From positions 1-21,480 of the IMG/VR virus record IMGVR_UViG_3300042486_000136: a DNA stretch of 21,480 nt, one strand, 5' to 3'. This DNA comes from a virus. A program made the translations under genes and the position numbers. Below the pieces are notes generated by a model, which saw only the letters and a program-made list of their open reading frames with translations, searched no databases and was not told where the DNA came from. This document shows, one piece after another, positions 8,546 through 15,819 of this stretch (positions are counted from its first letter, which is position 1; each line of letters begins with the position of its first letter).

Positions 8546-9745
8546 CTATGCTAAAAGTTTTTTTAGTACAGGTAGCCAATGGTTAGTCCAAACTGTTTCC
8601 ACGTCAAACTGCTTCACGAAGTCTATGCTCTTCTGTGAGCGTGTACCACGAACCTTGTAGGCTTCCTCAAGGGCGTTGACAATGCTAGGGATAAGTGGTA
8701 CTTGCCACCAAGCGTTCTGACCTGCATCCCAAGAAGGCTGACCATCAACAAGCCAAGAGTCCTCTGAAACAAGGTCTGGAGTAGCTGCCCAGTTGCTTCC
8801 AATCACTCTTGTCCCACAACTTTGTGCTTCAATGGTAGGAACACCAAATCCCTCTCCATAAGACGGAGTAAGCATGACATCCATAGCTGTATAGAACGCA
8901 GCCAAAGTTTCTTGGTCAATACCATACTTGTAGTCAGCCATGTCAGGAAACAAAATCTGCTCAGGTTTAATGCCCATAGATTCACACAGGACAAATAGAT
9001 TCCAGCCACCAGCACCACCAAACGGGTCTGTATGCAAATACAGTTTCGCATCAGGCTTATCCTGAGCAAAAATACTGAAAGCCATAATGTTCTCGGCAAA
9101 CGCTTTACGGTGAAGAAGTCCACCAGCCTTATTAGCTGCGTTCATACCCACAACAAAGTCATCCTTGCTCAAGTTCATAAACTTACGGGTCTCAACACCA
9201 TTGACCTTATAGGTAGGCTTCATAACGTTAGTGTCAACAGCATGAGGAACATACTCGCACTCCAAACCATTCTGCTCCATCTGACGTTTACCATGAGGAC
9301 TCATAGCGATAGGAAAAACATTAGGTTTCTTCAACCAAGTCAACACAGCAGGTGGAATAGTAACGTGGTCTAGCGGAGTCCAAGAAGCAATCTTCGGCAT
9401 CCTATCCCAAGCCTTGCCCTTAAAGACCCACACGTCATACAAGGTGATAAGCAAGTCATTTAACTTATCTTTCCTTGTGCTGTTTACTGTCTTAGCATGA
9501 TGGCTATGATTCATAACTAACACGTCATTGCTGTACGGCTCAAAGCCACGAGCGTAATGCGGAATCTTACCTGAAGGAGTTTCCAACACGCTATTAGTGC
9601 CTTCCAAACCAAAGTTAGATAACGCAGCAACATCCACACCGTCACGCTTCAAACGGTCAACCAGATAACCAGCCTGAACACCATAACCAGTAGGAATGTA
9701 TGGGCTATTAGAAGCAACAGAAACAATACCCTTTAACTTTGACAT
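8546..9745 (-). CDS. GT4-type (GT-B fold) glycosyltransferase
   Basis: A 399-residue retaining glycosyltransferase; it moves a sugar from an activated donor to an unknown acceptor. Visible marks are a Gly-rich N-terminal loop (SPYIPTGYGVQAGYL, residues 15-28), the C-terminal-domain start VVGMNAANKAGG with basic residues after it (R213, K214), and the donor-site E-X7-E motif in EGFGVPTIE (E298 and E306), followed by the usual SCGTRVIGS. I place the start at the ATG at 9743-9745, which has AAAGGAA nine bases upstream; an ATG 66 bases earlier lies in the terminator loop and lacks such a site. Lying inside the structural operon, it may decorate virion proteins, as glycosyltransferases of some actinophages do. 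It may also modify host surface or DNA. Confidence 0.87.
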   Translation of the reverse strand: MSKLKGIVSVASNSPYIPTGYGVQAGYLVDRLKRDGVDVAALSNFGLEGTNSVLETPSGKIPHYARGFEPYSNDVLVMNHSHHAKTVNSTRKDKLNDLLITLYDVWVFKGKAWDRMPKIASWTPLDHVTIPPAVLTWLKKPNVFPIAMSPHGKRQMEQNGLECEYVPHAVDTNVMKPTYKVNGVETRKFMNLSKDDFVVGMNAANKAGGLLHRKAFAENIMAFSIFAQDKPDAKLYLHTDPFGGAGGWNLFVLCESMGIKPEQILFPDMADYKYGIDQETLAAFYTAMDVMLTPSYGEGFGVPTIEAQSCGTRVIGSNWAATPDLVSEDSWLVDGQPSWDAGQNAWWQVPLIPSIVNALEEAYKVRGTRSQKSIDFVKQFDVETVWTNHWLPVLKKLLA

Positions 9746-9787
9746 AGGATTTCCTTTATTTCGTAGGTAGCAATAGACTAGCATAAG

Positions 9788-9842: not shown

Positions 9843-11015
9843 TTAGCTAGCTGCACCCTTGAAGAACTTGACATGGCTTGCATGTGTTAAGTTACCGTCA
9901 ACACGCATCTTCACTCTGAATGTGGTTACATCCTGGTTGAACGCATAGTCAGGTGACTGAGCAATGTCAATACCGCCAGCAATACGAACCTTGTATGAAG
10001 GTAGGTGACCGAACAGAACAGACTTAGCACCAGTAGCAACAGCTGCCATAGCAGGGTTCTCGTAAACTGGGAAGCCTAGAACGGTGTCTGGCGCTCCTGT
10101 AGTTCCTGGAACGAAGATGTAGTTACCTGCACCATCCTTCAACTTGCGAAGAACACCAAGTGAAGAAGTAGACATCTGGAAACCAACACCTGGAAGCTGA
10201 CGAGCAGCTCCATCAATGCTGTACACAAGGTCAACTAGGTTGTCGTATGTGAACGCACCAGCAACTCCAGTACCGCCTGTAAGAGCTGAACCAGCTGCAA
10301 CTGCTAGACCTGTTGGCTGGGTTGTACCAGTTCCTACAGTTAGAGCGTTGTTTACTGCGTAACCAATTTCGTTACCAGCCTGTTCTGCGATTAGAGAGGT
10401 TAGGTCGAATCCAGCATCTGCAATCAGTTCGTTCGCAACGCCAACCAAGAATGAGTACTTGTAAGCGTTTAGAGCGATAGATGAGAATGTTGGGTCGCTT
10501 GCACCAATAGCCTGAGTTGCAGTAGCAACAGCAGCAGTTGAACGAGCAGTTAGAGTTGGGATAGTTAGCTGCTCACCAGATGTTGTGTTGAAAATCTGTG
10601 AAGTTGCAAGCATAGGGCCAACAAGTCTTGCAACCGAGAAAACCTGGTTGTAGAAAGACTCTGGAACTGTGTTGCTTGAACCAACTAGAGTACGCTTTTC
10701 GCCAGCACCGAACTCGTATCCTCTACGCTCGCCCATAGCGATTGAACGAAGGATATCTGCATCAGTTGAACGAGTGTCGTTTGATGGTGTGAAAGAAGAA
10801 GCGGCTTCAGCTGCTCTCTCTTCACGCTCTGCGGTTGCCTTGATTGACTCAATGAGCTTTGCTCTTTCGTCAATGTCAACCATGATACGCTCGTAAGTTT
10901 GCTTCTCGTCACCTGAAAGGTCACGCTTTTCTGAAGCAGCATTGTCTAGAAGAGCCTTAGCTTCTTCATATGCTTTCTTACGGGCTTCTTGCTGAATGTT
11001 AATGTAATCAGACAT
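9843..11015 (-). CDS. Major capsid protein, HK97 fold
   Basis: A 390-residue protein of the phage capsid family. Residues 1-75 form a charged coiled coil (ARKKAYEEAKALL, ERAKLIESIKATAEREER), the delta or scaffolding-like domain removed by the prohead protease in HK97 relatives. The mature part starts somewhere near residues 100-115 (around GAGEKRTLVG); typical fold marks are TVPESFYNQV, the SFLVGVANELI helix and the C-terminal RVDGNLTHASHVKFF strand. AGGAG six bases before the ATG is a strong site. Upstream and downstream terminators isolate the gene, and direct repeats lie in its leader, which suggests its own high-level promoter. The protease gene is two genes upstream. Confidence 0.95.
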   Translation of the reverse strand: MSDYINIQQEARKKAYEEAKALLDNAASEKRDLSGDEKQTYERIMVDIDERAKLIESIKATAEREERAAEAASSFTPSNDTRSTDADILRSIAMGERRGYEFGAGEKRTLVGSSNTVPESFYNQVFSVARLVGPMLATSQIFNTTSGEQLTIPTLTARSTAAVATATQAIGASDPTFSSIALNAYKYSFLVGVANELIADAGFDLTSLIAEQAGNEIGYAVNNALTVGTGTTQPTGLAVAAGSALTGGTGVAGAFTYDNLVDLVYSIDGAARQLPGVGFQMSTSSLGVLRKLKDGAGNYIFVPGTTGAPDTVLGFPVYENPAMAAVATGAKSVLFGHLPSYKVRIAGGIDIAQSPDYAFNQDVTTFRVKMRVDGNLTHASHVKFFKGAAS

Positions 11016-11199: not shown

Positions 11200-11354
11200 G
11201 TTTCTTTTACTTCAACAACCCGAACTTCTTTAGCTGGGGTGTCAATAGCAACAACTGCATCAGCAAACGCTTCTGCTAAATCTCTTACTTCACCTGCTGA
11301 TGGGTTACCAGCAACATCTAGTATAGCCTTGACGATTTGTTCTTTAGTAGCCAT
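11193..11354 (-). CDS. Small conserved-looking phage protein between protease and capsid (53 residues)
   Basis: The ATG at 11352-11354 overlaps the protease stop by one base (TAATG) and the frame ends with TAG. The 53-residue product begins MATKEQIVKAILDVAGNPSAG, has an acidic middle (VRDLAEAFADAVVAID) and ends VVEVKETR. Its composition is coding-like, it is translationally coupled, and the stop lies right at a terminator, so I consider it real. Small proteins with this flavour (VAGNPSAG, AFADAV, and a final ETR) occur next to the capsid gene of other actinophages as far as I recall, without known function. A role in capsid assembly or decoration is a guess from position. Confidence 0.75.
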   Translation of the reverse strand: MATKEQIVKAILDVAGNPSAGEVRDLAEAFADAVVAIDTPAKEVRVVEVKETR

Positions 11355-12502
11355 TAGAGCATTTTTCCTTCCAGAGTGTGCTTCATCTGTAACAATCCTA
11401 GCAGATTAGGTTCTTCAACAGGAGCAGTTTCTTCAACTTCTTCTGCCTTTACTTCATCAGCAACAGACTCTTCAACCTTATCACCTTTAGTCATCTGCTT
11501 GATAACGTTTTCCAATAAACCTGCTTGGTCTGGAGTTAAAGAATCATTTGTCTCTAACGCCAAAAGAGCATCAGAAAGTTTTTCTACATCAACTTGGTCT
11601 AAGGAACGTACTTGTGCAACACTTGATTCGTAGGCTGGGAACGTCACGATACTTACCTCTAGCAATCTTACGGACTCTAAAGTTCTAACGTTGCCGTCAG
11701 GAGACCAAGAGTCGGACTGGACATTGAAACCAAAAGACATCTTATCAATGTCTCCTCGCTCCATAAGTATACTCAAATCTCGCCCTCTTGTGGTAGGTGC
11801 AAGTTCGGCTTCAACACGCAAACCCTTAGAGTCCTCAAACAAACGCATAGTACCAGAACGAGTGCTGGCCAAAGGTTCACCCGAATCGTGATTCCAAAGT
11901 AACTTCACATCATTACGAGACTGAAGAGAACGCTTGAAAGCACCAGGAGCGATACGCTCAGTAAAAGGTAGTGGCTGACTGTCGCTGTTAAACACAGCTG
12001 CGTAACCAGAGAAAGTTAGTTTGTCTCCGACAGCACGAATCTCAAACTCTGCATTAGAAACACGAGTTTCAGGTACAGGCTTCAAGCCGTTGATTTTGCG
12101 TAAGGTTGCCATAATCTTTGTAGCACGAGCATCAGCTCTAACAAGTACATCACTCATCAAATTCCTTTGTTTATTTGATTCTCTCTCAACAATACCACGA
12201 GACCAAGTAAAGCCAGCGTCTCCACCCCAAGCATCCCACATAATCCTGCCGTTTGAAGGATTGCTGGTATTAAAGAAATCTTTACCTTTTTTATCTACCT
12301 CATGGCGAGCAAAGAACGAGTACATACGCTTCACAACACTCAAAGACATAGAACGCCCAGCAACAATGTCTGTAGCCCTACCCCAACCAACAGGAGTACC
12401 AGCACCAGTAGCCTTACCGTCAGCCTTCCAACGCAAAGCCCTAGCCGCAGCAGTTTTCATCCCCTGTGTTGGCTTGTAAGATGCTACAGCCCTAGTATCC
12501 AT
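11354..12502 (-). CDS. HK97-type prohead protease (S78) with extra N-terminal domain
   Basis: The 382-residue protein has two parts. The C-terminal part (about 150-320) is the S78 prohead protease that matures the capsid: the fold marks FSGYAAVFNSDSQPLPFTERI and APGAFKRSL, the catalytic H205 in LLWNHD, S256 in KMSFGF, and the following SIVTFPAYESS are all present. The tail (330-382) is acidic. The N-terminal part (about 15-105) is a separate small domain with GAGTPVGWGRATDIVAG, RMYSFFARHEVDKKGK and GRIMWDAWGGDAG; I have the impression of similar domains in other phage proteins but cannot name it. A second start (ATG at 12155-12157, residue 116) has AAAGGAA placed ideally before it and would give a 267-residue protease alone. 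The outer start has only a weak site. Confidence 0.9.
   Translation of the reverse strand: MDTRAVASYKPTQGMKTAAARALRWKADGKATGAGTPVGWGRATDIVAGRSMSLSVVKRMYSFFARHEVDKKGKDFFNTSNPSNGRIMWDAWGGDAGFTWSRGIVERESNKQRNLMSDVLVRADARATKIMATLRKINGLKPVPETRVSNAEFEIRAVGDKLTFSGYAAVFNSDSQPLPFTERIAPGAFKRSLQSRNDVKLLWNHDSGEPLASTRSGTMRLFEDSKGLRVEAELAPTTRGRDLSILMERGDIDKMSFGFNVQSDSWSPDGNVRTLESVRLLEVSIVTFPAYESSVAQVRSLDQVDVEKLSDALLALETNDSLTPDQAGLLENVIKQMTKGDKVEESVADEVKAEEVEETAPVEEPNLLGLLQMKHTLEGKML
12155..12169 (-). promoter_or_regulatory. Internal ribosome binding site and start within the protease gene
   Basis: Read leftward the sequence is CAAAGGAATTTGATG, with AAAGGA five to six bases before an in-frame ATG at the exact junction between the extra N-terminal domain and the protease part. 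It is a better site than the one in front of the outer start at 12502. Confidence 0.65.
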
Positions 12503-12516
12503 AAAAGGTCTTTCAG

Positions 12517-12729
12517 TTATTCGGCTAATTCAGCCAATTCTGCTTCATGTACAGCAATAGCAGATTGGATAGTGACAATAGCTGCAGCAGATTGCTCAAC
12601 TACTTGCTCATTGTTTAATGCTTCAGCAGACTTCTTGTTTAACTCGTGCTGATAACCCTCAAGGTTTAGTGCTTCAATACGCTGTGTTAGCATCTGTAGT
12701 TTAGCTTCATAAGACACGTTAAATGACAT
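12517..12729 (-). CDS. Small coiled-coil protein of unknown function
   Basis: A 70-residue protein, nearly all predicted helix, with heptad-like spacing (LQMLTQRIEALNLEGY, NNEQVVEQSAAAIVTIQSAI) and an acidic end (HEAELAELAE). It lies between the fibre gene and the protease gene, 14 bases before the latter. A weak AAAGAAG site precedes the ATG. A -10-like TATGAT and a 17-base palindrome lie upstream, so it may begin a transcription unit with the protease. Small helical proteins beside the protease can act as scaffolds or assembly factors, but nothing in the sequence proves this. Confidence 0.65.
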   Translation of the reverse strand: MSFNVSYEAKLQMLTQRIEALNLEGYQHELNKKSAEALNNEQVVEQSAAAIVTIQSAIAVHEAELAELAE

Positions 12730-12819: not shown

Positions 12820-15819
12820 TTAAGCATTTGCAATAGTTGTTATAGTTCCTGAAGAGCCACGATACTTTAAAGCACCATTTTCAACATAAAGAATACCACC
12901 ACCGCTAGGGTTTGATGAAGGTGGAGTAGCATTTTGCATACCAATAACACCAACTCCACCACGAATGTCAAATGAGGTGTTGTTTATTCTAAGGTTTACA
13001 AATCCAGCACCGCCACCTTGAGCAACGTTCGCTAATACTGTTCCGCTTTCATTTTGCCACTCTTGGAAAGGTGCAGTTTGACCTGATACTCTGCGAATAA
13101 TCATTCCTGCTCGGCCAGTACCACCAGTATTAACGTTAATGGCAGCACCTATATAATCTGAAGCAATCAAAGCTGCCGAGCTAGGTAAAACTAAATCTCC
13201 ATAGGCATTAATTGAAGCTCTAGCACTTCCTTCACCTAGCCTTCTCCACTCTTGGAGATTGGCTGTATGTGAAGCCTGTCCATAAACGGTCATAGGAACG
13301 TTACTTGTTGTTCCAGCAGTAGCAGTCATAAAGTATGTTGCTTCCATACCACCAAAAATTATGACGTTAGAATCAGCACGAACATAGCCACCTGTTCCGC
13401 CAGCACTATTTTGCCATATCTGGGTTGCTTCAGATTGAGATGCAGCTCCCTTTACTGTCAAAGCAGCAACAGATGGTGTAGGAGCATTGACTAGCAAGTT
13501 GCCTTTAATACCGCCACTAACTGTCAATGGTGCAGCAATAGTTACGCTATCTGTAGTCGTATTTCCGATAGTGACTGAACCGTTACCATTAGCAGCACTT
13601 CCTTGACCACCATTAATAGTAACGTTACCGCCAAATCCTTGAGTGGTATTAGTTGCACCACCTGTAATACTGACGTTACCGCCAGAAGAAAGACCTGTAC
13701 CTGATACTGATGACCCACCAGCAATGTAAACTTCACCAGCATCACCAGCAGAATTACTTGTTGAACCGCCTCTAATGATGATTTCATTTGCTGGAGTAGT
13801 GCTTACAGAAACTGGGGCTAATAAAATTGCTGCGGAACTAGCAGAACTCGTGGTTGCAAATGAGCCAACATAACCAGAAGCAGCAGGTGTAGTCCAGGTA
13901 GGAGTGTTGCCTGAACCTGCGGATGTTAAAACTTGACCTGAGCTACCTGTGGAACTGTTTAGAGTTATCGGTGAATTTGTGCTTGTAAGGTTCAAGCCTT
14001 TAGAACTTATTACACCGCTTGCTAGTACATTTGCTAAAGGTGTTCCACCGCTATTTTGCCATTCTTGAAGTTCGGCTGTCTGACCAGCTGAAGCACGAAT
14101 TACAATTCCTTTTTCGCTGATAAGTGAAGGAACAATAGAAATCTTGCCACCCAAGTAAGATGTATTGATTTGCATGGCAGTATTTGGTAAATAGAGGTCA
14201 CCAATGTTAGTTATTACCGCTAAAGCTGTTCCACCAGAATTTTGCCATTGCTGTAAAGGCTCTGTTTGACCTGAAGCACCTCTAGCAATAAGAGGTATAA
14301 CATTTGAAAAACCAGCGTTAGCTATCATGTTGTAGCTTGAATAAAGACCATTCAGGGCGCTTACAGGTGCATAAGTGGTAATGCTATCTGTAGTCGCATT
14401 TCCGATAATTACCGAACCATTACCGTTAGTTGTGCTTCCTTGTCCACCATTAATAACTACAGAACCACCACTACCCTGACTTGTGTTGGATGCACCACCA
14501 GTAATGTTTACACCACCGCCGCTAGACAATCCTGTACCTGTCGTTGACGTACCACCAGCAATATAAACTTCACCAGCATTACCAGCCGAATTAGTTGTTG
14601 AACCGCCCTTAATAGTGATGTCATTTGCTGGAGTAGTTGAAACATCTGCTGGAGTCAATAAAATTGATGCGGAACTGGCTGTTGTAGTTGTTTGGAAAGC
14701 ACCAACATAACCAGAAGTAGGGTTAGACCAAGAAGGCGTATTACCTGTGCCATTTGAAGTCAATACCTGTCCAGACGAACCAGCACTATTTTGAACTTGC
14801 AATGGAGAAGATGAACTAGAAAGATTAAAAGCACCAGGAACAGAAACTAATCCTGTAGGAGAAATAAATAGTCTTGTCGCACCATTATAAAAATAGAAGT
14901 TTTTTTCACCATCTCCAAAACCGTCTTGACCAATAGCCCAATCTGTACCAAACTGCATACCAGCACGATTAGATGCAGTTCCACCGCTAGACCAAGTAGA
15001 TTCACCAATAACTAAACCTGGAGCGTATCGGTCATTAAGTCCACCAATGCTAATTGCTGCAGATGATGTAGCCCCACTCAATGTTAATGGCGCACCAATA
15101 GTTACACTATCTGTACCGTACTCAGTTCCAATTAAAACAGAACCATTACCATTTGCACCAGAACCAAGTCCACCATTTATTTTTACAGAACCACCAATAC
15201 CCTGAGTAGAGTTTCCATTACCAGCAGTAATGTTTACGTTACCGCCAACAGTAATGTTTGAAGTATCTGTAGAATTACCACCAGTTAAAGTTATAGCTCC
15301 ACCAGTAGCAGATGGAACTGAAGTGCTACCGACAGAAATTGGAAGTGCGACACCAGGAGCAGTCTGAATACCTGTAATTGAAGTTCCAGAACCTGTAAAA
15401 CCAGAACCATTTGAAGCTGAAGTTAATCTTCCTTTGCTGTCAACAGTAATGCTCGCTAAAGTGTATGAACCTGCGGTAACGCCTGTTGTAGCCAAAGTTG
15501 GGTTAGGAAATGTACCTGCTAAATCTCCGCCAGCAGAACCTGTAGGAGTTCTAGCATCTGACAAACGAGAATCAGAAGTAATAACAGCAGTCCCAGTAAC
15601 CTGAGAAGGGTCAATCGCTAAAGCAGTTTGGTCAATACCAATAACAGCAGCAGTAGGCGTACCAGAATTAGTTATAGGTGCAGTAACCTCTACAGAACCT
15701 GCTGTGCCAGGAGTATTAGTAAACGTGCTAATCCAAGCAGCACCATTCCAAGTGTAAGTAATCTCTCCGTAAGTAAAAGAATCGCCTACAGCTGGATTAG
15801 ATGGATACGGGATAGCCAT
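12820..15819 (-). CDS. Large repetitive fibre / appendage protein
   Basis: A 999-residue Gly/Ser/Thr-rich protein. The N-terminus ([25 protein letters not shown]) is the structural-anchor motif common to fibres of aquatic phages, and [14 protein letters not shown] near residue 100 is another widespread fibre motif. Inside are three related Gly-rich beta-helix-like blocks (about 165-250, 375-490, 655-770), two copies of GQVLTS-x-G-x-GNTP-x-W about 280 residues apart, and about five copies of a unit around Q[11 protein letters not shown]. No C-terminal peptidase or intramolecular chaperone domain is evident. The gene lies between the portal and protease genes rather than after the tape measure, so the product may be a head fibre or a separately placed tail fibre. 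AGGAA before the ATG is the ribosome site. Confidence 0.82.
13511..13861 (-). repeat. Fibre repeat block, copy C
   Basis: This encodes the block running from [14 protein letters not shown] through [14 protein letters not shown] and [18 protein letters not shown] to LTVSGG. It matches copy B closely in both protein and DNA. Confidence 0.8.
14353..14697 (-). repeat. Fibre repeat block, copy B
   Basis: This encodes [14 protein letters not shown] through [14 protein letters not shown] and [18 protein letters not shown] to APVSAL. Long stretches are near-identical to copy C, so it arose by duplication or recombination within the gene. Confidence 0.8.
15075..15325 (-). repeat. Fibre repeat block, diverged copy A
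   Basis: This encodes the related but shorter block with [20 protein letters not shown] and [19 protein letters not shown]. It lacks the GEVYIAGG part and is more diverged than B and C. Confidence 0.65.

Follow-up and report, generated by a model that had tools for sequence, protein, structure and literature searches.

A conserved internal start site suggests a prohead protease nested within a longer, N-extended gene of a viral head operon

In phage lambda, an internal in-frame start within the capsid-protease gene C additionally yields the C-terminal part of its product on its own. The lambda protease is of the S49 type, whereas the gene described here encodes one of the S78 type. For the HK97 protease gp4, we know of neither an N-terminal accessory domain nor an internal start. 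The roles of lambda C and Nu3 have been described (PMC3224144), and in HK97-type proheads the protease subunits are built into the structure in about 60 copies (PMC12749128). A full-text search of the literature on internal starts in prohead protease genes, covering open-licence papers only, returned nothing relevant, a result that does not establish novelty.

We analyzed a stretch of viral DNA of 21,480 nt, positions 1 to 21,480 of IMG/VR record IMGVR_UViG_3300042486_000136 (hereafter the window). The original prediction held that its prohead protease carries an extra N-terminal domain ahead of the S78 protease and that a second in-frame ATG lies at the domain junction. Both elements were recovered: the N-terminal part matches phrog_2859 over residues 7-109, PF04586 covers residues 153-303, and the second ATG is that of M116, with CAAAGGA located 5 nt upstream. 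The features of the locus are the following.

11354-12502, minus strand: full-length open reading frame, 382 aa, comprising N-terminal domain, linker, S78 prohead protease and acidic tail
12500-12502, minus strand: outer start ATG, with 5' sequence TGAAAGACCTTTT; its Shine-Dalgarno (SD) sequence is weak by E. coli rules and moderate with an actinobacterial 16S tail
12173-12481, minus strand: core of the N-terminal domain, about residues 8-110; five helices, pLDDT 94; phrog_2859, no Pfam family
12163-12169, minus strand: internal SD sequence CAAAGGA, invariant in 17/17 related ORFs while the linker around it varies
12155-12157, minus strand: internal start codon ATG (M116), in frame with the outer ATG
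11354-12157, minus strand: predicted short product, the protease alone, 267 aa
11594-12046, minus strand: Peptidase_S78 domain, residues 153-303 (PF04586, E 3e-48)
12517-12729, minus strand: small upstream gene, 70 aa, without family match, also located 5' of the fused gene in L001 and L004
11193-11354, minus strand: small downstream gene, 53 aa, the ATG of which overlaps the protease stop (TAATG)
9843-11015, minus strand: HK97-type major capsid protein (PF05065, 6e-57)

In profile searches the protease half passed both the curated cut-off of PF04586 (164.5 bits for a cut-off of 21) and that of TIGR01543 (128 bits for a cut-off of 59), and the gene sits in a head operon with the HK97-fold capsid gene. 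Judged by profile match and by this location, the protease half is an HK97-type prohead protease (Peptidase_S78). Between the portal-side genes and the protease, the window encodes a repetitive protein of 999 aa (12820-15819), to which the counterparts in relatives bear only partial likeness. A WhiB transcription factor gene is also present (756-1070; PF02467, 6e-18) and points to an actinobacterial host.

The match of the N-terminal domain to phrog_2859, a functionally uncharacterized phage family, was obtained with an E-value of 4e-28, whereas profile searches yielded no convincing Pfam or NCBIfam family and a sequence profile search of the PDB gave no significant match. AlphaFold2 modeled the domain as five helices with a mean pLDDT of 94. 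Compared with solved structures, this model had no Foldseek match at E ≤0.001 and reached at most Z 2.8 on a second look, which does not by itself establish a new fold. In the full-length model, M116 falls inside a low-confidence stretch (residues 108-120). In other phages the phrog_2859 domain occurs alone or joined to TUDOR, Dps-like, HAD, ParB, portal, XkdF and protease-capsid proteins, and a domain of this type also precedes protease-capsid fusions. It is further encountered as a stand-alone protein of ~100 aa in bacterial chromosomes (Nocardioides, rhizobia and Kocuria; L249-L328), and the Xanthomonas version bears a Lys/Ala-rich histone-like tail. The regions that extend prohead proteases N-terminally combine HAD/PNKP-like, Dps-like, TUDOR-like and further modules in a mosaic fashion (L061, L155, L250, L376).

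We propose, with a probability of roughly 0.8, that the gene is a nested pair in a single frame from which both the 382-aa and the 267-aa proteins are made. Initiation at the outer ATG would yield the prohead protease bearing the five-helix accessory domain, and initiation at M116, directed by CAAAGGA, would yield the protease alone. The protease module and its own ribosome-binding site would thus form a unit to which accessory modules can be joined in frame on the 5' side without loss of the site.

Within the window, the M116 ATG (12157-12155) is preceded by CAAAGGA-ATTTG, that is, by an SD sequence with a 5-nt spacer. The site had been described as "ideal" and as stronger than the outer one. 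It is indeed the stronger of the two, with a duplex energy of -5.6 versus -0.9 for the outer start when an E. coli-type anti-SD is used, but the gap narrows with an actinobacterial 16S tail (-6.1 versus -4.9), making the advantage modest and the term ideal generous. SD strength alone, which we considered as evidence for an internal start, proved ordinary: equally strong SD sequences precede 12 of the 101 in-frame internal ATGs of the window and 11% of all its ATGs, so that the case made from this single sequence would be weak. When SD strength and predicted accessibility are taken together, only 2/87 reach the level of the M116 site. Since strength alone does not go beyond chance, the case for the internal start rests on conservation across relatives.

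For the lineage of the window itself (group A), viral contigs and the window together yielded 17 distinct ORFs of this type, with nucleotide identity down to 66%. All 17 keep both CAAAGGA and the ATG while the linker residues vary: R is followed by N, T or M, and L, S, I, K or N precedes M. Among the 36 nt of the 12 codons around the start, 10 are invariant, including 7/7 positions of the SD sequence versus 3/29 of the others (p 1.4e-5, phylogeny being ignored), and invariant 7-nt blocks account for only 2% in these ORFs. The pattern RAAGGA-N4-7-ATG occurs exactly once per group A ORF and always at the junction. What lies upstream differs between members, being either the domain alone or the domain with other modules; L106 has an unrelated N-terminal part that resembles the HAD-like part of L061, and yet CAAAGGAATATT-ATG is retained. 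It is to be noted that, for synonymous constraint, a wider window of 8 codons on the 5' side of the internal ATG has a rank of only 37/369 in this group, and that Q112 and R113 are conserved as residues, which could account for some of the conservation at the nucleotide level. Purifying selection at the protein level acts on both halves, as pN/pS in the group A comparison is 0.15 for the N-domain and 0.15 for the protease. In group A, the window with the strongest synonymous constraint in the gene spans codons +30 to +36 counted from the internal ATG, close to where the protease begins.

Comparable junction starts were found in other families. Group B consists of 34-38 ORFs, about 44% identical, carrying a divergent form of the domain; GAGGAA stands 5' of an ATG that is invariant, and the codons immediately preceding it show some of the lowest synonymous variability in the ORF. 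In two groups other than group A, synonymous change approaches its minimum immediately 5' of the internal ATG, at ranks 5/450 and 11/495, the latter in group D. The synonymous constraint in group B (L011-L058) extends over codons -15 to -2, further 5' than an SD sequence needs, and may reflect another RNA element. In a family linked to Rhodobacteraceae, first met in a Rhodobacteraceae genome bin, a strong SD sequence precedes MERRYG and is kept in different codon registers (GCA-GGA-GGC, CAG-GAG-GTC and GCG-GGA-GGT); the 8-codon window upstream ranks 102/288 for synonymous constraint in this group.

The clearest evidence for start function came from the family of phage phiPsal1 (52 distinct ORFs, nucleotide identity down to 53%), in which exchanges between Leu, Met and Val at the junction use only the three codons with which bacteria start translation. 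TTG is present there in 41/52 members, ATG in 5/52 and GTG in 3/52, the remaining 3/52 having a Lys codon. Wherever the residue is Leu, its codon is TTG (41/41), and this is the sole single-codon column among 18 Leu columns, the next one reaching 56% TTG. In the three members with Lys (L465, L472 and L473), CGGAGC or a similar sequence precedes a GTG located five codons upstream, to which the start may have moved. Sequence comparison thus indicates that selection maintains the internal SD sequence and start codon in these families, and both products are probably made in the cell. As a separate observation on gene order, the capsid gene of the window is followed by a glycosyltransferase gene (8546-9757; PF00534) with conservation across groups A, B and C, and the phiPsal1 annotation has a glycosyltransferase at the same place, after the capsid gene.

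Whether relatives encode the domain as a separate gene had been proposed as a check, and five such cases were identified (L154, L158, L163, L167 and L168), in which the domain protein is encoded upstream in another reading frame. In both L158 and L167, the stop of the domain gene precedes the protease ATG by 28 nt, with a TTG start 9 nt earlier; the L167 interval includes CAAAGGA. The protease start therefore occupies a corresponding place in fused and unfused relatives. This geometry is equally what a recent fusion would leave behind, with the old start and SD sequence as remnants and the full-length protein as the only one made and working; in a single sequence such a leftover would look identical. 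A relic would decay, however, and we consider this explanation improbable in view of the retention of the site throughout group A despite its divergence, of the exclusive exchange between TTG, ATG and GTG in 49/52 members of the phiPsal1 family, and of the persistence of the SD sequence under changing codon registers in the Rhodobacteraceae-linked family. That two fused genes are still translated separately, as originally predicted, is thus supported as far as sequence can tell, since SD sequence and start are kept while the linker and the upstream part change.

Prohead proteases process themselves, and the short protease could accordingly be cut from the long form in the linker at the conserved QR, the SD-like sequence being a by-product of the residues encoded there. 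The conservation of QR in group A and the low confidence with which the linker is predicted, as if it were flexible, agree with such cleavage. Other families nevertheless keep the SD sequence and the start with quite different residues (EETNS, AGGDI, AQEVT, GEAL), and cleavage offers no explanation for the invariable use of TTG for the junction Leu in the phiPsal1 family, which makes it improbable as the source of the short protein. Finally, that the site is one of the SD-like sequences expected by chance before some ATG in any ORF of such length would fit the counts of equally strong sites in the window and the similar frequencies in cluster-level synonymous shuffles, but it is scarcely credible given that random sites are not conserved at one position across lineages and that the conservation tests disfavour it.

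The nested start does not extend to all N-extended proteases. Among 15 divergent clusters of such proteins, a strong SD-ATG near the junction was present in 9, versus 7.7 in synonymous shuffles, so an internal start as a general rule is unsupported. Protease-capsid fusions (CRP-406, S-CBS3) were considered as further cases and set aside, most clusters being devoid of a convincing site, and group-wise comparison revealed no conserved junction ATG in the L376 (Dps-like), L136 and L426 groups. Fusions that persist without the internal site, raised in the original prediction as a counterindication, are thus absent from the lineage of the window and present among protease-capsid fusions, in the Dps-like group and in the L136 group. 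Because the site is missing in some groups, we limit the claim to particular families, that of the window included.

As protease subunits are built into HK97-type proheads, the long form could perhaps be a minor form through which the accessory domain enters the prohead, serving there as cargo or adaptor, a reading we prefer but advance tentatively. The capsid-targeting role originally suggested for the long form is likewise speculative. More doubtful is a general loading scheme in which mobile domains (this domain, TUDOR, HAD/PNKP-like and Dps-like) would ride N-terminally on a minority of the protease subunits, with the ratio of cargo to free protease depending on how strong the internal start is.

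Two genes sharing one frame probably underlie some of the proteins annotated as N-extended prohead proteases, an arrangement that offers phages a possible control over the number of protease copies bearing an accessory domain. Nested translation in capsid genes is already known; here the protease would be the nested product, and the arrangement recurs in divergent phage families, the upstream modules changing while the internal start stays. The likeness to lambda C/Nu3, which had been anticipated with the roles ordered differently, lies in a capsid-protease gene with an internal in-frame start, here together with an SD sequence under selection; in lambda it is the scaffold that is nested, and only the long form contains the protease, whereas here the predicted nested product contains the whole S78 protease. 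HK97 gp4 belongs to the same Peptidase_S78 family and is likewise encoded in a head operon that also specifies an HK97-type major capsid protein. Proteins of phrog_2859 share the N-terminal domain, which elsewhere, in most cases, is not fused to a free protease that has an internal start. The protease of Pontimonas phage phiPsal1 (AUV61415.1) is similar in that a divergent form of the domain is fused to the same protease with a conserved internal TTG and SD sequence; it differs in having more N-terminal modules (484 aa) and TTG instead of ATG, and this named phage makes the nested-start reading testable.
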